A stretch of 33,744 nucleotides of DNA from Coriobacteriia bacterium. GTDB lineage: Bacteria > Actinomycetota > Coriobacteriia > Anaerosomatales > SLCP01. Shown here piece after piece: positions 14,700 through 23,106 of this stretch. The DNA lies in contig JAHYJI010000013.1 of NCBI GenBank assembly GCA_019429145.1, positions 1 to 33,744 of the forward strand, given 5' to 3'. The position numbers were made by a program, and so were the translations under genes. Every line of letters begins with the position of its first letter. The stretch's first letter is position 1. The notes under the pieces are model-generated. The model was given only the letters and a program-made list of their open reading frames with translations. It made no database searches and was not told the origin of the DNA.

Positions 14700-15311
14700 A
14701 TGATAGAAACTCCGTATTCCGGCGTCGCGTGGGTGCTCTCATTGGCCGTGGCAGCCGCGGTGGGAAGCGTGCCTTTCACCGTCCTCGTTCCGCGGGCGTT
14801 GGGACACGATGACCCCAGGACCAGCGGCTCTGGCACGCCAGGCGTCGCCAACGTTGCGATGTCTGTGGGATACGGCGCTGGTGTCGCCGTAGCGCTTCTG
14901 GAGGGGGCCAAGGGTGTGATCGCGGTGCTGCTTCCGCGGGCGTTCGGACTCCCGTTCGAGGCGCAGGCGGCATCCCTCTTTGCCGCGGTGGTGATGACGG
15001 CGCACTCGCCGTTCCTACGCTTCCGCGGCGGGCATGCGCGGACGCCGGGCATCTGGGGCCTCCTCGCCGCGCAGCCGCTCGTGCTTCCGGTGCTCGCTGC
15101 AACGTACGGTGCGACACTCGCGGTGGCCCGCTCCGCACAGAGAGCCGATGTGGCGACCCTGCTCGCCATCGGGCCTGCTCTCGGACTTGCGACCCGGTCG
15201 GTGAGCGGCCTGGTGGCCGGCGCGTGTTTCTCGGCCTTTTACCTGTGGCGCAAGAGTATTCTGGGCAGCGATGCGCAGCACTACCGGATCTTCGGGGAGC
15301 TGACGGACTGA
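14700..15311 (+). CDS. Divergent PlsY-like membrane acyltransferase homologue, copy 1
   Basis: 203 residues from ATG 14700. Hydrophobic throughout with about five or six helices. The three PlsY motifs can be followed in diverged form: GSVPF (usual GSIPF), GSGTPGVANVAMSVG (usual GSGNxGATNxxR), LLEGAKG (usual LDxxKG) and HSPFLRFRGGHARTPG (usual GHxFPxFLxFKGGKGVAT). PlsY moves an acyl group from acyl-phosphate to glycerol-3-phosphate. Here Asn becomes Thr in GSGN, and the Lys of GGKG becomes His, so the donor, acceptor or activity may differ. It is the first gene of the operon; its TGA overlaps the ATG of the PEP-utilising enzyme by one base. Confidence 0.72.
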   Translation: MIETPYSGVAWVLSLAVAAAVGSVPFTVLVPRALGHDDPRTSGSGTPGVANVAMSVGYGAGVAVALLEGAKGVIAVLLPRAFGLPFEAQAASLFAAVVMTAHSPFLRFRGGHARTPGIWGLLAAQPLVLPVLAATYGATLAVARSAQRADVATLLAIGPALGLATRSVSGLVAGACFSAFYLWRKSILGSDAQHYRIFGELTD

Positions 15312-17707
15312 TGCGCTTCTTGCGGGCTACGTCGGCAGAAGCCGCGCGAGTGGGTGGCAAGGCCGCAAGCCTCGAACGTGCCCGTGATGCAGGTCTGCCC
15401 GTCCCGGCCTTCGCCGTGCTCGGACCCGAGGAAGTGCGTGTGCTCGTGGAGGGCGACCCGGGCGATGAGCGCACGCTCCGCGCTCGCGAACTGGTTGCAG
15501 CCTCGCTCGAGTCACTCGGTGATGCTTGTGTCGCGGTGCGCTCGTCGGGAGTGGGCGAGGACGGTGAGGCGTCGTTCGCGGGGCAGTTGCACTCGGTCGT
15601 CGGCGTTTCAGGCCTCGATGAGACCATCGATGCCGTGCGCGTCGTTGGCGCGAGTGGCTCGGCTGAGCTGGTTCGTGCGTACGGTGCGAGCATGGGCGTC
15701 GAGCTCGGAGCGGTCTCCGTCGTCCTGCAGCGCTTCATCGAGACAGAGTGGGCGGGCGTTGCGTTCTGCCGCGATCCGGTCACCTATCAGCCCGAGATTG
15801 TCGTCGAGGCGGTGCGCGGTCCGGGCTCGCTCCTCGTCGACGGCAGCACCACGCCGTCGAGGGCCGTGCTGGACCGCGATACACGCGACATCATCGTGCC
15901 TCCGGGACAGAACGCGCCCTCACTTCCACCCGACGTGTTGCGTGCGGTCGGGGACCTTGCGATGCGCACCGAGGAGCTCTTCGGCGCGGCGCAGGACATC
16001 GAGTGGGGATGGGACGGCGGGCGGCTGTGGCTGCTCCAGAGTCGGCCGATGACCGCGCTCGACGGGCTCGAGGTGTACTCGGACACCTTCTCGGCGGAGG
16101 TCTGGCCGGGGGTGATCAAGCCGCTGGTCTTCGATGTGGGCAACCGTTCGGTCAACAACGCCTGGGGACGCCTGCTCACGGCGATCGCAGGACCTGTCGA
16201 CGTTGACTGGCAGCGCATGGCAGGCTGGGCAGCCTCCCGGGCGTACTTCAACGATTCCCTCCTCGGGGACGTCCTGAGCTATGCTGGCCTGCCCGAGAAT
16301 GCGCTGGAGGCCATCGAGCGCGGCGAGCGCCCGCGTCTTCGGGAGGGCTCGGTCGCGCGCATGGTAGCGAGTGCGACACGGCTCGTGGGCTTCGCGCTGG
16401 CCAATCGCACGAGGTTACGCACCGTGGAGCGGGAGGTGCAGTCGCTAAGGGAACGGGCGAGGTCTCTCGCGGCCGGAGCTTCAGATGCCACGGCGGCTGA
16501 GGTGGCGCGCCGCTTCGACGAGCTGCTGGACCTGCTCGAAGACGCCGCGTATCTGAGCGTACTAGCGATGATCGGGATGGGCCTGCGGGGGATGCGAGTC
16601 AAGCTGCTCGCCCGGCTATTGCGTGCCGGGGGCGACGTCAACGCGCTTGCGACCCCTCGCGGGGAGGGGCCGATATCCGAGCTCGACGAGGTGGCCCGGC
16701 ACGTGCACGAGCTTTCCGAGGCCGAGCTCGCCCTGTTTGAGACTACGACCACCGACGAGATACACGAGGTGCTTGACCGCACCGAGGCCGGCCGGCAGGC
16801 CCGTCTGGCGATGGACGCCTTTCTCGAGCACTGGGGTCACGTGGCGACCGTGAACACCGACTTCTCGGCCCCGACGTGGCGCGATGATCCGATGCTGCTC
16901 TGGCGCCTTTCGGTACGAACCAAGAGTGTGCCACGCGTGTCCGATGAAGCCGATCGTGCGCTCGAGCGGACGGGATGGCTGCTGCGCCGTCACGTGATGA
17001 GACTGCGCCGGTCTGTAGTCGCTCGCGACGAGGTCAACGACGCGCTGGCGCTCGTCTACGACGGCTTGCGCGTGACCGCGCGCCGGGCGGGCAACCTGTT
17101 GACTCCATCGGTCATCCCCGCCGCGGACGGTGTGTACTGCCTCACCCTCGACGAGCTGTTCAGCGCGCTGCGCGGTGAGTCCGGACCGCTTCACGATGTC
17201 GTGGAGCAGCGCCAGGCCGCGCTTGTCGCGGACGCCGATGTCTCTCCGCCCCACCGGCTTTGGGGGCTTCGCCTTCCGCCGCGCTGGCGGATGCTCGACG
17301 TGGAGCGTGCTGAGAGCGTTGCGTCCGAGGGCGAGCTGCGCGGAACACCGGCGAGCGCCGGGACGTTTACCGGCACGGCTCGTGTCGTGACCGACTTCGC
17401 CGAGGCGCCGAAGCTGGGTCCGGGCGACGTGCTCGTGATCGCGCATGCGGATGTCGGCTGGACCCCGCTGTTCGGCGTGGTTGGCGCGGTGGTGACCGGG
17501 ACCGGCGGAGGGCTCTCGCATGCCGCGATCGTCGCCCGCGAACGCGGCGTCCCGGCTGTCCTCGGTGTCTCCGATGCGACACTGGCTATCCCGGATCGCT
17601 CCCGCGTATCAGTGGATGGAACTGAAGGGATCGTAAGGGTGCTGAACATCGAGCCCGAAGGAAATGAAAGCCGCTCGGGCAAAGGAGACTCCGTATGGAG
17701 AGCATGA
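15311..17707 (+). CDS. PEP-synthase/rifampin-phosphotransferase-like phosphotransferase
   Basis: 798 residues from ATG 15311. Residues ~1-310 form the PEP/pyruvate-binding ATP-grasp domain: GGKAASLERARDAGLPVP near the start, AVRSSGVGEDGEASFAGQ, then CRDPVT and DIEWGWDGGRLWLLQSRPMT. Residues ~315-690 are a long, mainly helical central domain of unassigned specificity. Residues ~695-785 are the swivelling PEP-utilising domain with the phospho-His motif TGGGLSHAAIVARERGVPA (catalytic His737). This three-part layout is that of rifampin phosphotransferase and other ATP-dependent dikinases, in which ATP phosphorylates the His, which then phosphorylates the substrate held by the central domain. PEP synthase itself lacks this kind of central insert. 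The 3' end overlaps the chelatase-like gene by 13 bases. Substrate unknown; an alcohol or lipid-like hydroxyl is plausible from the neighbours. Confidence 0.82.
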   Translation: MRFLRATSAEAARVGGKAASLERARDAGLPVPAFAVLGPEEVRVLVEGDPGDERTLRARELVAASLESLGDACVAVRSSGVGEDGEASFAGQLHSVVGVSGLDETIDAVRVVGASGSAELVRAYGASMGVELGAVSVVLQRFIETEWAGVAFCRDPVTYQPEIVVEAVRGPGSLLVDGSTTPSRAVLDRDTRDIIVPPGQNAPSLPPDVLRAVGDLAMRTEELFGAAQDIEWGWDGGRLWLLQSRPMTALDGLEVYSDTFSAEVWPGVIKPLVFDVGNRSVNNAWGRLLTAIAGPVDVDWQRMAGWAASRAYFNDSLLGDVLSYAGLPENALEAIERGERPRLREGSVARMVASATRLVGFALANRTRLRTVEREVQSLRERARSLAAGASDATAAEVARRFDELLDLLEDAAYLSVLAMIGMGLRGMRVKLLARLLRAGGDVNALATPRGEGPISELDEVARHVHELSEAELALFETTTTDEIHEVLDRTEAGRQARLAMDAFLEHWGHVATVNTDFSAPTWRDDPMLLWRLSVRTKSVPRVSDEADRALERTGWLLRRHVMRLRRSVVARDEVNDALALVYDGLRVTARRAGNLLTPSVIPAADGVYCLTLDELFSALRGESGPLHDVVEQRQAALVADADVSPPHRLWGLRLPPRWRMLDVERAESVASEGELRGTPASAGTFTGTARVVTDFAEAPKLGPGDVLVIAHADVGWTPLFGVVGAVVTGTGGGLSHAAIVARERGVPAVLGVSDATLAIPDRSRVSVDGTEGIVRVLNIEPEGNESRSGKGDSVWRA

Positions 17708-18951
17708 AGTGGATCATCGCCGGTGCGCTTGCCTTCGTGACGGGCTGGGCTCTTACCGGCTTTCTCACCGCACCACCCGTACAGATGAGTGCATACCTGG
17801 CCGTGGCGTGCTTTGCGCTGGCCGGGCTCGTCTATCTTGTGACGCGACCCCGCGGGCGTGAGCGCGCGATTCTGATCGGGCTTAGCGCGCTGCTGATCGT
17901 GGTCGGCTACACCGCCAACGCTGCCGTCGTGCTCGGCCGGGAGGACTCGCGTTTCGTGCCGGAGTTGACCCGCCAGGCGGGCGATGCAGGCGACGGTTTC
18001 ACGGCGGTGATCTACTTCACGCACGGCGAGCCCGAGACCTACGACCCCATCGGCTGGCTCAACCAGTTCCGCGAGTTCGACGAGCAGGGGATCTCCTTCG
18101 TCCCGTTCGTAGCGCGTCCGTTCTTCCTCTACCAGCTGCGCGAGGCCTATCTCGAGGTCGGAACGAGCCAGCATCGACTGCGGCACCTCGACATGGCGGC
18201 CTCGCTCGAGCAGAAGCTGCTTGACGAGGGATACGCCAACATCCGCGTCTACCCGTCCTTCCTCGATGACGAGCCGCGGCCCGACGCGGCGGTGATCCAG
18301 GCGCTCAACGACGGCGCGAGTGAGATCGTGGTCGCGGAGGTCTTCGTCTCGATCTCGAATCACACTGCCGAGGGGGAGGAGCTCATCCACGAGGTCGACG
18401 TCGAATCGCTCGGGGTGCCGCTGACCTTCACGGGACCCCTCTGGGATTCAGCGACGCTGCACCAGATGTTCGTGGACAAAGTCGAAGCGGAGCGCGGCGA
18501 GATCCCGAGAGATAGAGTCTCGGTACTCCTGGTCGGGCACGGACAGCCTGACGAGTGGGACGAGGAGTGGGCGACAGAGACCGAGCACGAGCTCGGACTT
18601 CGAGAGGGCATCATCGATGCGCTTGTGGCCGAGGGATACGACCGCAGCCTGCTTGATCTTGCGTGGATGTCCTTCAAGGAGCCGACGGTGCCCCAGCGTG
18701 CCGGCGAGCTTGCGTCGGCCGGGGCGGACAAGCTCGTCTACTTCTCGACCGGCATCAGCGCCGAATCGATCCACAGCCAGTACGATGTACCCGAGCTGGT
18801 CGCCGAGGCCCGCATCGACGAGTCGGTCGAAACCGTGAACCTCGGTGCCTGGAATAACCACCCACTCACGATCAAGGCGATCGCGGAGCGGGTCATCCCG
18901 TTGCTGCCGGAGTCGGCCCGTGGCGAGGCGAATGTGACGCGTGAACCCTAG
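17695..18951 (+). CDS. Membrane-anchored ferrochelatase-fold protein
   Basis: 418 residues from ATG 17695, with AAAGGAG just upstream and inside the previous gene. Residues ~5-25, 31-49 and 58-80 are membrane helices; the loop between the second and third is TRPRGRER, so by the positive-inside rule the remaining ~335 residues face outward. These resemble a complete HemH-type chelatase: the first half has THGEPETYDPIGWLNQF (110-126), REAYLEVGTSQHRLRHLD and a LEQKL helix, which match the LGTP, REAYRKI and SPLRHxT landmarks of ferrochelatase; the second half has LLVGHGQPDEW with His282 at the catalytic-His position and SAESIHSQYDVPEL with Glu357 near the catalytic-Glu position. Ferrochelatases are normally cytoplasmic or attached to the inner face without three N-terminal helices. 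A metal-chelating or other tetrapyrrole-like role is possible, as is a repurposed fold. Confidence 0.72.
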   Translation: MESMKWIIAGALAFVTGWALTGFLTAPPVQMSAYLAVACFALAGLVYLVTRPRGRERAILIGLSALLIVVGYTANAAVVLGREDSRFVPELTRQAGDAGDGFTAVIYFTHGEPETYDPIGWLNQFREFDEQGISFVPFVARPFFLYQLREAYLEVGTSQHRLRHLDMAASLEQKLLDEGYANIRVYPSFLDDEPRPDAAVIQALNDGASEIVVAEVFVSISNHTAEGEELIHEVDVESLGVPLTFTGPLWDSATLHQMFVDKVEAERGEIPRDRVSVLLVGHGQPDEWDEEWATETEHELGLREGIIDALVAEGYDRSLLDLAWMSFKEPTVPQRAGELASAGADKLVYFSTGISAESIHSQYDVPELVAEARIDESVETVNLGAWNNHPLTIKAIAERVIPLLPESARGEANVTREP

Positions 18952-18963
18952 CGAGCGTATGAC

Positions 18964-19695
18964 ATGAACTGGCTGCTGATGGGTGGCGCTCTGCTGCTCG
19001 GTTACTTCTGTGGCTCGATCTCGTTCGCTCGCATCATCGTGCGGCTTGCAGGACACGATCGAGTGCAGCCGCTTGACCTCACGTCTCCGGACGGCGGCGC
19101 ATCCCTCCGTTCGGATGCGGTGAGCGCGACCGCTGTGCGGCTGCAGCTCGGGGCGCGCTGGGGCCTGACGTGTGCGGCGGGCGACATCCTCAAGGCCTTC
19201 CTGCCCGTACTTGCGCTGCGCATCGCGTTCCCGGGCGAGCCGTACCTGTACGCTGCCGCTCTCGGAGCGCTTGTCGGTCATAACTGGCCTGTCTTCCACC
19301 GCTTCAAGGGCGGGCGAGGTCAGTCCCCGATGCTCGGGAGCATGCTGGCTATCGCCCCGCTCGGTGCCATCGTCTGCAGTCTTGCTGGCTTCGTGCTCGG
19401 CTACTATGTGATCCGTGATGCGATGACCTCGGACAACCTCGGGCAGCTCCTCTACATCCCATGGGTGTGGGTGGCGGGGCTCGGCCCGTGGGCCATAACA
19501 TGGGCGCTGGCGGCAAACATCACCTTCTTCGGTTCGTACGCCGGTGAGATCCGGCAGTACGCGGCCGGCCGCAGAGCCGGACACCTGCGGGACCCGGATG
19601 ATGTCATGAGGATGATGAGAATGGATTACGAATGGATGCCGGGGGTCTCACGCCGCGCACCGATCGATGACACGGATTCGGATGATTCGCGATGA
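18964..19695 (+). CDS. Divergent PlsY-like membrane acyltransferase homologue, copy 2
   Basis: 243 residues from ATG 18964, 12 bases after the chelatase-like stop, with a weak ribosome site. PlsY landmarks: GYFCGSISF, SATAVRLQLGARWG (in place of GATNxxRxxG; the GSGN part is missing), DILKAFLP (DxxKG) and GHNWPVFHRFKGGRGQSPML (GHxFPxFLxFKGGKGVAT). Compared with copy 1 it keeps the GH-P-F-FKGG motif well but has lost GSGN; copy 1 keeps GSG but alters the GGKG motif. An extra charged C-terminal tail (from ~195, DDVMRMMRMDYEW) is not typical of PlsY. It overlaps the dehydrogenase by four bases (ATGA). Confidence 0.72.
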   Translation: MNWLLMGGALLLGYFCGSISFARIIVRLAGHDRVQPLDLTSPDGGASLRSDAVSATAVRLQLGARWGLTCAAGDILKAFLPVLALRIAFPGEPYLYAAALGALVGHNWPVFHRFKGGRGQSPMLGSMLAIAPLGAIVCSLAGFVLGYYVIRDAMTSDNLGQLLYIPWVWVAGLGPWAITWALAANITFFGSYAGEIRQYAAGRRAGHLRDPDDVMRMMRMDYEWMPGVSRRAPIDDTDSDDSR

Positions 19696-20660
19696 AAGCG
19701 CTCTGGCTTGAGGACGGAAATCTCAGTGTTCGCGAGATCGACGTGCCACCCGCGAGCGGCGAGGCGCTGGTTCGGGTGACGTTGTCGGGCATCTGCGGCA
19801 CCGACCTGGAGCTGACGCGCGGCTACTACCCGTACGCAGGGGTTCCGGGCCACGAGTTCGTGGGCGAGGTCGCCGAGGCGCCCGATCCCGAGTGGGTCGG
19901 CGAGCGGGTGGTTGCCGAGATCAACGATGCGTGCGGCACGTGTGCGATGTGCCGTCGCGGGCATCCGACCCACTGCGAGCGCCGCACCGTGCTGGGCATC
20001 GTTGCCCACGACGGAGCGCATGCGGAGTACGTGCGCGTGCCCGTCGCCAATCTGCACCGTGTGCCTGACGGCGTACCCGACGAGGCCGCCGTGTTCGCAG
20101 AGCCGCTCGCCGCCGCCCTCGAGATTCTCGAACAGGTCCACATACGGCCTGGCGACAGGGTGCTTCTGGTGGGAGCCGGCCGGCTCGGCCAGCTCGTCGG
20201 CAGGGTGCTCGCGCTCACCGGAGCGCATGTGCGCGTGCTTGCCCGTTACGAGCGGCAGATCGAACTGCTCGCGCTCGCCGGGGTCGAGTGTGTGGCCGAG
20301 GACGAGGTCGGTGAGCGGTGCTGGGACGTCGTCGTTGAGGCGACCGGTTCGCCCTCGGGGCTCCATACCGCACGAGCCGCGCTCCGGCCGCGTGGCACGC
20401 TGGTGCTCAAGTCGACCTACCGCGGCGAGGTCACGCTCGACCTCGCGCCGTTCGTCGTCGACGAGATCACCGTCGTCGGCTCGCGCTGCGGCCCCTTCGA
20501 GCCCGCGCTCGAGCTGCTCGCCACCGGCCGGATCGACCCGGTGCCGCTCATCGAAACGCGCTACCCGCTCGCCCGTGCGCTCGAGGCATTCGAGGCGGCC
20601 GTGCGCCCCGGAGCGATGAAGGTGTTGCTGGAGCCGGGTGGCGGACCACCCGGCTCCTGA
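19692..20660 (+). CDS. Zinc-dependent MDR alcohol dehydrogenase-like enzyme
   Basis: 322 residues from ATG 19692, coupled to the PlsY-like gene. It is a medium-chain dehydrogenase. Catalytic zinc residues: Cys35 (GICGTD) and His54-Glu55 (GHEF). Structural zinc: Cys81, Cys84, Cys87 and Cys95 (CGTCAMCRRGHPTHC). A GAGRLG Rossmann turn follows LLV at ~154. It should oxidise an alcohol or reduce an aldehyde or ketone with NAD(P)(H). Details such as GYYPYAGVPGHEFVG, VFAEPLAAALEILEQV and VVGSRCGPFEPAL agree with my recollection of a specific uncharacterised MDR subgroup (cd08242-like). It is somewhat short for the superfamily. The last ten codons form half of a perfect hairpin. It is the last gene of the operon. 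Confidence 0.88.
   Translation: MKALWLEDGNLSVREIDVPPASGEALVRVTLSGICGTDLELTRGYYPYAGVPGHEFVGEVAEAPDPEWVGERVVAEINDACGTCAMCRRGHPTHCERRTVLGIVAHDGAHAEYVRVPVANLHRVPDGVPDEAAVFAEPLAAALEILEQVHIRPGDRVLLVGAGRLGQLVGRVLALTGAHVRVLARYERQIELLALAGVECVAEDEVGERCWDVVVEATGSPSGLHTARAALRPRGTLVLKSTYRGEVTLDLAPFVVDEITVVGSRCGPFEPALELLATGRIDPVPLIETRYPLARALEAFEAAVRPGAMKVLLEPGGGPPGS
20630..20657 (+). terminator. Perfect 12-bp hairpin ending at the dehydrogenase stop codon
   Basis: GGAGCCGGGTGG (20630-20641) and CCACCCGGCTCC (20646-20657) pair perfectly around CGGA; the TGA stop follows at once. The terminator stem is thus built from coding sequence and encodes the Gly/Pro-rich tail (EPGGGPPGS). Confidence 0.55.
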
Positions 20661-20712: not shown

Positions 20713-23106
20713 TCAGTCGAGCCCGTTGTAGATTGCGTTTGCGATGAGGCGGAACGAGCCTTCCGGATGCGAGCGGAAGGTCGCATCCGCTCCGATGAGC
20801 GTCAGGTTCGATGCTCCGTCGTTGGCGTGTACGATGAGCGGCATACCTGCAGCTCCGCTCGCCTGCCACTCGGGCCAGTAGCCGCTCTTGAAGAAGTCGC
20901 CCTCCCCAAGCCATGCGGACACTTTGAGGCCCTCATAGCGCGTGAACCATACCGAGCGGTACAGGAAGGCGTGACCGCTCTCCAGGTACCCTGCCGCCAC
21001 GGAATCATCGGGATCGTAGCCGATGGCGACGACGCCGTTGCCCGTCATGTAACCGTACTCGATGTCTGCGATGCCGGCGCTGACAGCGAAGGCAAACGCT
21101 CGGCCACGGTCGGACAGCGCGATGTAGTTGCCCCCGGCTGCGTACCAGTCGAGGAACGAAGCGCGTCCGGCGGCGTTGATGCTGGTCCACATCAGTCCCT
21201 GGTTGATGAACACGTCGTAGTCGGCGAGCGCGCCTGCGTTCAGCATGCCAGTCGACACCCGGTCGTACTCGAACCCGAGGGCGTCGAGTGCGAGGTAGGT
21301 GCCGTTGTCGGTGGCGGAGACAGCGATGCGCTGCTCTCGCAGTGGCACCAGGTCGTCGGGTGCTGCGCTAAGCGCGTAGACATCGAGTCCGTACTCGCTC
21401 GCTACTTTCCGTGCCAGTGCGGGGTCGCCGGACAGGATGACGGCGCCTGCGCCGAAGCTGCGCCCTCCGTCCTCAAACGGACCTTCGACCCTGCTGAGTG
21501 TGAGTCCCTGTGCGAGCAGTTCGTTGGTTGCCTTGATTGCCGAGTTGCTTGTCGGCAAGTACGCATACGCGCCGGCCTTGCCACTCTCGACACTCGGGCC
21601 CGGCAGGTCGGCTCTCTTGATCGACATAGTGCGAAGCGGTATCCGCTCCTCCATGATCGCGCGTGTCACGTCCCAGAGCAGCGGGTTGCTCCACGCGGCA
21701 GGCGGTGAGTAGAAGACCATACCGGGCACGCCGGACAGATCGAGTCCGTCCTCGAGCATCACGTTGGCAAGGGCGCGTTTGGGCTGGTCCATCCAGATCA
21801 CGTACGTGCCTGTCGGATACATGACCCCGCCGAGGCTGAAGGCCTGCGCGGCCTTCTCGACCTCGATCCCGTTGTGGAGTAGGAACTCGATCAGACGGTA
21901 GGGCTGGTGCGCACTCGGCTGGAGTGGTGTACCCGCAGGGATCACGTAAGCGGCCGGGAAGTCCTGCAGCATCAGCTCGGGGAACTGGTCGTACACCGGC
22001 AGAAGCTCCGGTGGGACCGGCTGTTGCTCGAGATCCAGGTATCCACGGCGGTAGATCTCCACCTGGTCGTGGAGCATCTCCTGCCTGTTCTCGGCGATGA
22101 ACTTCAGTGCTCCCCACACGGCGTGGTAATGAGCGTCCACGCCCCGCTCGTCACGGTAGGGTGTCTCGAGCGTGTGGCCGTAGGAGCCGTGGTACGAGGC
22201 GAACACCGGCATGTAGCTCGGTGCCCAGTCGTCCCAGCCGCCGGCCCTGTCGCGATAGGGTATCTGCGCCGCCCACCCGGTCTTGTCGAACAGCTCGGCC
22301 TCCATCGCTTCTGCCTGGGCGAGCGCCCACTTGATGTAGAGGTCGTACTCGTAGTTCGGGTTGTGTGGTGGCGTGCACGGCTCGATGAGCATCGGGTTTA
22401 CGAAGCCGTGCAGGTCCAGCACGACCATCGGACTCCACTCGGTCAGTAGCCCAGCGGTTATCTGCGCCTCGGGCTGCGACTGCGTGAAGAAGTCACGGTT
22501 CACGTCGACCCCGTTGGCATTCGACCGCGTGCCCAGCACCCTGCCATCGGGGTTCTGGACGACGTTGACCAGCAGGATGACGTTGTCGAGGATCTCCCGC
22601 ACTTCCTCGCTGTCGTCGTAGGCGAGCGTCTCAATGAGCCGGATGGCCGCGTCGGTCCCGGGATACTCGGTGCCGTGGATGCTTCCGTTGATGAAGACCG
22701 GCACCTTGAAGTCACCGAGCTTCTCGATCATCTCCTGGGCCTTCTCGGGATCCTTGAGCATCGTCTGGGCGATCGCCTTGTACCGTCCGAGGCGGCCCAT
22801 CGCCTCCGGTGCCGAGAGCGTCACGAAGTACAGGTCACGGCCACCGGCAGACTGCCCGACAACCTCGACCTTCACCCGGTTGCTGTTCTGCTCGATCTCG
22901 CGCAGCTTCGGGGCGATCTCGGAGTAGAGGATCGAGTCGTAATACGGGGACGGACTCTCCGGTTCGGGCTCCACGATCCACCAGGGACCCGAGTTCTTGC
23001 CTGAACTGGCGGGTGCCGCACTCGCTGCCATCGGGATCGCCAGGGCGACCACCAGCAGCACCGCGAGCACGGCGCGCCATAGCTTCTCTGATGAGCGCAT
23101 ACTCAT
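20713..23106 (-). CDS. Secreted M14-family zinc carboxypeptidase, large
   Basis: 797 residues. The start (complement of 23104-23106) lies behind GAAGGGAG. A Sec signal peptide (residues 1-30, AVLAVLLVVALAIPMAASA) indicates export. The peptidase domain spans ~50-370: zinc ligands His144 and Glu147 (GSIHGTEYPG) and His233 (LDLHGF), substrate-binding Asn203-Arg204 (VDVNRDF) and a likely catalytic Glu314 (HTLETPYRD). The C-terminal ~400 residues are a region of unknown specificity with a Rossmann- or glutamine-amidotransferase-like look (DYDVFINQGLMW followed by a Gly-rich ALSDRGRAF). The enzyme should trim peptides or cell-wall stems outside the cell. It is transcribed alone, convergent with the five-gene operon. 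Confidence 0.9.
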   Translation of the reverse strand: MSMRSSEKLWRAVLAVLLVVALAIPMAASAAPASSGKNSGPWWIVEPEPESPSPYYDSILYSEIAPKLREIEQNSNRVKVEVVGQSAGGRDLYFVTLSAPEAMGRLGRYKAIAQTMLKDPEKAQEMIEKLGDFKVPVFINGSIHGTEYPGTDAAIRLIETLAYDDSEEVREILDNVILLVNVVQNPDGRVLGTRSNANGVDVNRDFFTQSQPEAQITAGLLTEWSPMVVLDLHGFVNPMLIEPCTPPHNPNYEYDLYIKWALAQAEAMEAELFDKTGWAAQIPYRDRAGGWDDWAPSYMPVFASYHGSYGHTLETPYRDERGVDAHYHAVWGALKFIAENRQEMLHDQVEIYRRGYLDLEQQPVPPELLPVYDQFPELMLQDFPAAYVIPAGTPLQPSAHQPYRLIEFLLHNGIEVEKAAQAFSLGGVMYPTGTYVIWMDQPKRALANVMLEDGLDLSGVPGMVFYSPPAAWSNPLLWDVTRAIMEERIPLRTMSIKRADLPGPSVESGKAGAYAYLPTSNSAIKATNELLAQGLTLSRVEGPFEDGGRSFGAGAVILSGDPALARKVASEYGLDVYALSAAPDDLVPLREQRIAVSATDNGTYLALDALGFEYDRVSTGMLNAGALADYDVFINQGLMWTSINAAGRASFLDWYAAGGNYIALSDRGRAFAFAVSAGIADIEYGYMTGNGVVAIGYDPDDSVAAGYLESGHAFLYRSVWFTRYEGLKVSAWLGEGDFFKSGYWPEWQASGAAGMPLIVHANDGASNLTLIGADATFRSHPEGSFRLIANAIYNGLD

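Follow-up and report, generated by a model that had tools for sequence, protein, structure and literature searches.

On which side of the membrane does a ferrochelatase-like domain held by three N-terminal helices work, and on what? This question is raised by the 33,744-nucleotide stretch of contig JAHYJI010000013.1 analysed here (the window, which denotes the whole stretch). The DNA comes from an Anaerosomatales-type actinobacterial metagenome-assembled genome (MAG) of 2.07 Mb, which is 98.5% complete. We showed that both lobes of the protein encoded at 17695-18951 (+), a chelatase-like gene for which we use the short name CHEL, carry, as read from the aligned sequences, a His-acid-His set of the type known from the small chelatase CfbA, except that Ser326 occupies one acidic position in the window genus. 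Judged against the open-access literature, the CHEL family looks like a natural single-chain, four-His chelatase-type protein. Tentatively, we propose that CHEL is a membrane-bound enzyme which inserts a metal into salvaged tetrapyrroles or removes it from them (a chelatase or dechelatase), more likely placed on the outer face, with a dikinase and a PlsY-like protein as its partners.

An open reading frame (ORF) with an ATG start coincides exactly with these coordinates and is preceded by a Shine-Dalgarno-like sequence (aaaggag). The product scored above the gathering cut-offs of the Pfam families Ferrochelatase (E 7.8e-8, 32.1 bits, cut-off 27) and CbiX (E 2.3e-5, 25.1 bits, cut-off 22), and lay far below the NCBIfam equivalog cut-offs (14.2 bits vs 408 for ferrochelatase, 29.7 vs 120 for CfbA). 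An AlphaFold2 (AF2) model, built from 15 aligned sequences (mean predicted local distance difference test, pLDDT, 89.9; predicted template modelling score, pTM, 0.86), shows two alpha/beta lobes behind three long helices at the N-terminus. With Foldseek, the first 41 PDB structures matched by this model were all ferrochelatases (HemH/CpfC/FECH), followed by SirB; the best HemH match had an E value of 2.4e-11 and a TMt of about 0.74, and the matches to HemH and SirB had a probability of 1.00. By its modelled two-lobed, Rossmann-like fold CHEL belongs to the class II chelatase superfamily. A preliminary description of the locus had proposed a HemH-like part of ~335 residues behind three N-terminal helices with a basic TRPRGRER loop. 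The Pfam matches, the model and the Foldseek results bear this out: the model superposes on the chelatase fold, with HemH as its nearest relative, and the loop sits between helices 2 and 3. A chance ORF or random similarity is ruled out by the matches above cut-off, the high-confidence model and the presence of homologues in several phyla.

The evidence for two sites comes from the conservation and the register of the active-site residues (Table 1). H110, H160, H164 and H223 are invariant in the family alignment, and position 191 is Asp or Glu in 16 of 16 rows. H282 and H360 are kept in all rows with data except those of a Coriobacteriia subclade. At position 326 most relatives have Glu, whereas the window genus has Ser, and Met is found where the C-lobe His pair has been lost. 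In a profile alignment with bona fide HemH of related genomes, the HemH sequence DHMETLYDLD falls on AESIHSQYDVPE, which places the catalytic Glu on His360 and the preceding Asp on Glu357. The same register was obtained with phmmer against CfbA (His75 on His360, Glu42 on position 326; the CfbA chain numbering was derived from the printed alignment). Hhalign put the His of small CbiX on His223 (a weak match, E 0.025) and paired FTHGEPETYD with VGHGQPDEWD, i.e. His110 with His282. In the model, strand 1 of each lobe is immediately followed by H110 or H282, and the helix that comes after the corresponding later strand has H223 or H360 at its start. The 308-residue domain has six conserved His columns, and all four CfbA-type His sites are among them (p about 4e-8 that six conserved His hit four named columns, the columns being assumed random). 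Counted by sequence and secondary-structure position, CHEL thus has four active-site His per functional unit, and a pseudo-symmetric four-His cleft is predicted within a single chain.

The preliminary description had also stated that landmarks of both halves of ferrochelatase are kept, including His282 and Glu357. This proved to be an understatement, as each lobe has a His pair and an acidic position. His282 corresponds to the C-lobe catalytic His, but it is not universal, being replaced by Tyr in the Coriobacteriia subclade, and Glu357 had to be abandoned as the catalytic residue because the profile alignment with HemH assigns that position to His360.

In the subclade mentioned above (L037, L040 and L004), H282, E326 and H360 are replaced together (by Tyr, Met and Ser, respectively), and the N-lobe site is intact. 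L040 and L004 are one locus from two collections, and the subclade therefore comprises two independent genomes. Since it is nested within the family tree, the loss of the C-lobe site is derived, and the family probably started out with four His. Such joint replacement is the behaviour expected of a functional metal site. In L037, the cassette whose chelatase has lost the C-lobe site also contains an ABC transporter pair (FtsX-like permease and ATPase; L037:2741-4616, +) between the dikinase and PlsY-like genes.

CHEL can be compared with several known class II chelatases. CfbA is a homodimeric small enzyme, which inserts Ni into sirohydrochlorin. CHEL shares with CfbA and CbiX-S the His9/(Glu42)/His75-type site, which it has twice (H110/D191/H223 and H282/E326 or S/H360), and the equal count of four His per cleft (PMC11301274). 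It differs from these dimers of about 130-residue chains (about 120-145 aa) in being one fused chain with a domain of about 310 residues, and in having a membrane anchor and extra HemH-like helices. The fused two-lobe architecture and the type of the His pair are common to CHEL and to SirB, CbiX-L and CbiK, of which SirB is also among the Foldseek matches; however, in single-subunit enzymes of this class the pair is confined to one of the two domains, be it the N or the C domain (PMC7689651), whereas CHEL has it in both. The nearest fold is that of HemH/CpfC, with which CHEL also shares the weak Pfam match and an RxxYxxxGxS stretch. In contrast to these enzymes, which have a catalytic His and Glu in the C-lobe, CHEL has His360 at the Glu position, an extra N-lobe His pair and a membrane anchor. 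The replacement of the catalytic Glu, together with the occurrence of a true HemH elsewhere in the source genome (G000:C104:5067-6023, 193 bits), rules out that CHEL is a plain HemH. According to a 2024 study, four active-site His are not known from any class II chelatase that is naturally monomeric, and an engineered four-His, single-chain SirB, built there to mimic CfbA, was partly denatured (PMC11301274).

Table 1. Features of CHEL and of the neighbouring genes (window coordinates)
Feature	Position	Strand	Evidence
CHEL, membrane-anchored single-chain class II chelatase-fold protein, 418 aa	17695..18951	+	ORF/translation, Pfam Ferrochelatase/CbiX, AF2 pLDDT 89.9, Foldseek HemH
Three-helix membrane anchor, residues 2-25, 28-49, 55-80	17698..17934	+	DSSP of AF2 model
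Basic loop RPRGRER between helices 2 and 3	17845..17865	+	sequence
Bilobal chelatase domain, residues 102-403	17998..18903	+	AF2 model, Foldseek
His110, N-lobe site, CfbA His9 equivalent, invariant in family	18022..18024	+	
Asp191, N-lobe acidic position, possible CfbA Glu42 equivalent	18265..18267	+	equivalence inferred from strand position
His223, N-lobe site, CfbA His75 equivalent, invariant in family	18361..18363	+	
His282, C-lobe site, CfbA His9 / HemH His183 equivalent	18538..18540	+	
Ser326, CfbA Glu42 position	18670..18672	+	phmmer, alignment
Glu357, residue named in the preliminary description; aligns to Asp of HemH DHxET motif	18763..18765	+	profile alignment
His360, C-lobe site, CfbA His75 / HemH catalytic Glu equivalent	18772..18774	+	
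PlsY-like membrane protein 1 (divergent)	14700..15311	+	Pfam G3P_acyltransf 8.9e-20; similar gene in L042
RPH/PEP-synthase-like dikinase: ATP-grasp, middle domain, phospho-His swivel	15311..17707	+	Pfam PPDK_N 2.9e-32, PEP-utilizers 1.4e-18
PlsY-like membrane protein 2	18964..19695	+	Pfam 4.4e-22; adjoins CHEL in several phyla
Zinc-type alcohol dehydrogenase-like gene	19692..20660	+	Pfam ADH_N 5.3e-24

The local gene order is PlsY-like 1, dikinase, CHEL, PlsY-like 2 and the zinc alcohol dehydrogenase-like gene. The dikinase gene starts at ATG 15311, in a TGATG overlap with the stop codon of PlsY-like 1, the start of CHEL overlaps the 3' end of the dikinase gene by 13 nt, and the dehydrogenase-like gene overlaps the stop of PlsY-like 2. 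Because the overlaps are so close, the five genes (14700-20660) likely form an operon, in which the dehydrogenase-like gene, not conserved in the cassette elsewhere, is the last. PlsY-like 2 must have been gained or lost very recently, since it is missing between the chelatase and dehydrogenase genes of a 93% identical relative (L031:8251-8270). The His motif of PlsY-like 1 varies (AHSPF vs AYSPF). Convergent with the operon is a long gene at 20713-23106 (-), whose probably exported product shows an M14-like zinc carboxypeptidase pattern (read by eye), and which has a ~89% identical copy in L031. Elsewhere in the window, a protein with a C-terminal heme peroxidase domain is encoded at 209-1912 (+; Pfam peroxidase 4.4e-48); cultured members of the lineage are described as anaerobic.

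In most carriers CHEL adjoins the dikinase gene. The two genes are adjacent in the window and in L031, L032, L034-L038, L042 and L043, and in G074 the dikinase gene lies beside a second CHEL fragment. The full-length dikinase profile scored at least 300 bits in 13 of the 15 carriers; a close subfamily (at least 800 bits) was found in 10 of them and in none of four non-carrier relatives, one of which (G053) has a distant member. As in rifampin phosphotransferase (RPH) and phosphoenolpyruvate (PEP) synthase-like dikinases, the protein has an ATP-grasp, a middle substrate domain and a phospho-His domain, the last with its catalytic His in the invariant GGxLSH motif, as expected of an RPH-type dikinase. 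It differs in its low identity (~18%, Foldseek alignment) and in a middle-domain motif of its own, FGHFSDSGNDFSxxPWRE. RPH is the nearest solved structure; because the dikinase model is of low confidence (pLDDT 67.8), the relationship is drawn mainly from sequence. A PlsY-like gene is adjacent to CHEL in many carriers. Of the PlsY motifs, GSxxxAR and GHxWPxxxRFKGGRG are present in the neighbouring PlsY-like 2 type and SGNxGATN is missing, so that the acceptor of this type may differ from glycerol-3-phosphate. We know of neither a dikinase nor a lipid-type acyltransferase in tetrapyrrole metal-insertion pathways.

Close relatives of CHEL (49-93% identity) were identified in Actinomycetota, WOR-3, Bipolaricaulota, KSB1, Chloroflexi, Methanofastidiosum and one Methanosarcinales MAG. 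In the tree they are united in a single clade (100/99), which a very long branch separates from HemH. Carriers are rare: 3 of 147 genomes in the phylum of the WOR-3 group, 1 of 100 in that of the Bipolaricaulota carrier, and 1 of 295 in that of the Methanosarcinales carrier (the carrier itself, plus one weak partial match). An even draw of 396 Actinomycetota gave a strong match only from the window's own gene. This patchy distribution fits horizontal spread. With regard to a virus or plasmid origin, no CHEL relative was found in a viral contig scan, in PHROGs or among the PLSDB plasmids. Several carriers are MAG contigs, for which a binning error is possible in single cases; the repeated finds and a complete chromosome (CP070680) make it unlikely overall. 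Extra C-terminal pieces of the chelatase gene (G066:C90:4-282, G074:C41:10420-10713 and G073:C675:5568-5963) represent either second copies or the ends that truncated contigs lack.

Among the relatives of the window genome, 59 of 61 genomes match CHEL or its paralogue. CHEL is nevertheless not a general property of the host order, as the order-wide relative is mostly a His-poor syntenic paralogue, 20-30% identical to CHEL, which has kept the anchor and fold and lost most of the His set. This paralogue (e.g. L045:9446-10768 (-), G000:C73, with counterparts throughout the window's order) has kept its gene neighbourhood in the loci sampled, where it converges on a PHP-domain gene, and its rate of evolution exceeds that of the genes around it; in the tree with HemH it groups beside CHEL (support of the paralogue group 84/78). 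Both Methanofastidiosum chelatase copies (L039:6033-6845 (-) and L041:5896-6708 (-)) adjoin a PHP-domain gene, which resembles this neighbour of the paralogue.

The gene content of the carriers bears on the nature of the ligand. HemB (ALAD) is present in the Anaerosomatales and archaeal carriers and missing from 7 of the 15, including the complete chromosome (G065). Cytochrome c assembly proteins are encoded by six of these seven and B12-binding domains by five; the HemB-less carriers appear to use tetrapyrroles which they do not make. A tetrapyrrole substrate would have to be imported in these organisms, since its synthesis is missing, and with about half of the carriers unable to synthesise tetrapyrroles, an exogenous tetrapyrrole ligand of CHEL is plausible.

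The location of the domain was assessed with a positive-inside score, calculated from all short loops and the 15 residues after helix 3. Three hydrophobic segments are present in all 12 relatives with a usable N-terminus, and the score favoured an outward domain in seven of them and an inward one in five (the sequences scored here and below are related to one another, hence not independent, and in MAGs the start of a gene is uncertain). The window protein scored outward (log-likelihood ratio, LLR, +2.4). In the 12 relatives, the combined density of Lys and Arg (K+R) is 0.10 in loop 1, 0.34 in loop 2 and 0.19 at the N-terminus, the loop between helices 2 and 3 being less basic than in the window protein. 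On balance, a location of the domain outside the membrane is plausible and slightly more probable than not. There are precedents for an extracytoplasmic chelatase, namely the periplasmic cobaltochelatase Dv-CbiK-P (PMC4063343) and the outer-membrane CbiK-like protein IhtB of P. gingivalis (PMC6460266), so that location alone is not new. If the outward topology is true, CHEL would share with them a class II chelatase fold outside the cytoplasm; it differs in its four His, in a three-helix anchor instead of a periplasmic or outer-membrane location, and in lineage.

In CfbA the metal is bound by one His9/Glu42/His75 set, and deprotonation of the macrocycle may fall to the His pair across from it (PMC11301274). 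If, by analogy, this scheme can be carried over to CHEL, one His pair would bind a divalent metal (of the Ni, Co or Fe class) and the opposite pair would act as a base or as a second metal site, as proposed for CfbA. The metal would be inserted into, or removed from, a membrane-held tetrapyrrole, more likely at the outer face, and in carriers without tetrapyrrole synthesis the substrate would be salvaged heme or corrinoid. On the cytoplasmic side, the RPH-type dikinase and the PlsY-like protein would activate a group and attach it to the salvaged molecule or to the membrane lipid carrying it; we assign this role to the two partners with low confidence.

Several points weigh against this proposal. 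The metal, the ligand and the activity of CHEL are all predicted, and the four-His geometry is deduced from sequence and model positions. The third C-lobe ligand is missing in the window genus (Ser326), and the additional invariant residues (H160, H164, FREFD, SNHTAEG and TETE) suggest a specialised substrate. One carrier, G066 (a 1.4 Mb MAG), yielded no ALAD, cytochrome c assembly or B12-binding matches, which leaves room for a non-tetrapyrrole ligand. As for the side of the membrane, the residues after helix 3 are also basic (K+R 0.21), 25 of 28 order-wide paralogues score inward, opposite to the window protein, and the dikinase needs ATP and is hence cytoplasmic, which would suit a chelatase domain in the cytoplasm.

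Some of these points would be explained if the fold had been reused, with the four-His cleft serving a non-tetrapyrrole reaction, e.g. on a phosphorylated or acylated membrane lipid or another small molecule. In such a three-enzyme pathway the dikinase would make a phosphorylated intermediate and the PlsY-like protein would transfer the group. This idea accommodates the company of a dikinase and a lipid-type acyltransferase in a conserved cassette, the lack of ALAD in half of the carriers, the absence from G066 of signs of tetrapyrrole use in the families tested, the strong invariance outside the metal sites and the very long branch from HemH. However, all four CfbA-type His positions are kept and most ALAD-less carriers seem to use heme or corrinoids, and we regard both the reuse and the pathway built on it as unlikely.

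Alternatively, an enzyme of the same class might have its domain in the cytoplasm, behind an N-out three-helix anchor, and work there with the dikinase and a cytoplasm-facing PlsY-like protein. The translational overlap with the ATP-dependent dikinase, the basic stretch after helix 3, the five inward-scoring relatives and the similarly anchored paralogues are in line with this arrangement, whereas the outward loop charges of the window genus, the K/R-poor loop 1 and K/R-rich loop 2 of the family, and the many carriers that make no cytoplasmic tetrapyrrole argue against it; we consider it quite unlikely. The outward placement put forward in the preliminary description, which was derived from one basic loop in a single genus, agrees with the short-loop charges and with seven of the relatives, and is rejected as a settled topology, because the charge evidence is mixed. 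Finally, it is very improbable that CHEL is a non-catalytic tetrapyrrole- or metal-binding protein (a sensor, carrier or storage protein), as the paralogues with most site residues gone and the CHEL subclade without a C-lobe site might suggest, since the N-lobe site is invariant in 16 of 16 rows, from bacteria and archaea, with dense conservation around it, and the cassette includes two enzymes.

Taken together, CHEL as a chelatase for salvaged tetrapyrroles would be a natural single-chain, four-His enzyme at the outer face, part of a module of three genes, spread horizontally, by which organisms that do not make tetrapyrroles would salvage or remodel foreign ones, and the C-lobe loss in one branch would replay the route to one-lobe enzymes such as SirB; in this complete form the picture is unlikely. 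The CHEL family provides a natural test of the stability and activity of a symmetric site in one chain and, as the second site is already gone from one subclade, of how asymmetry evolved. Its conserved association with a dikinase and a PlsY-like protein, where half of the carriers lack tetrapyrrole synthesis, suggests that uncultured anaerobes have an undescribed membrane pathway, possibly for tetrapyrrole salvage.

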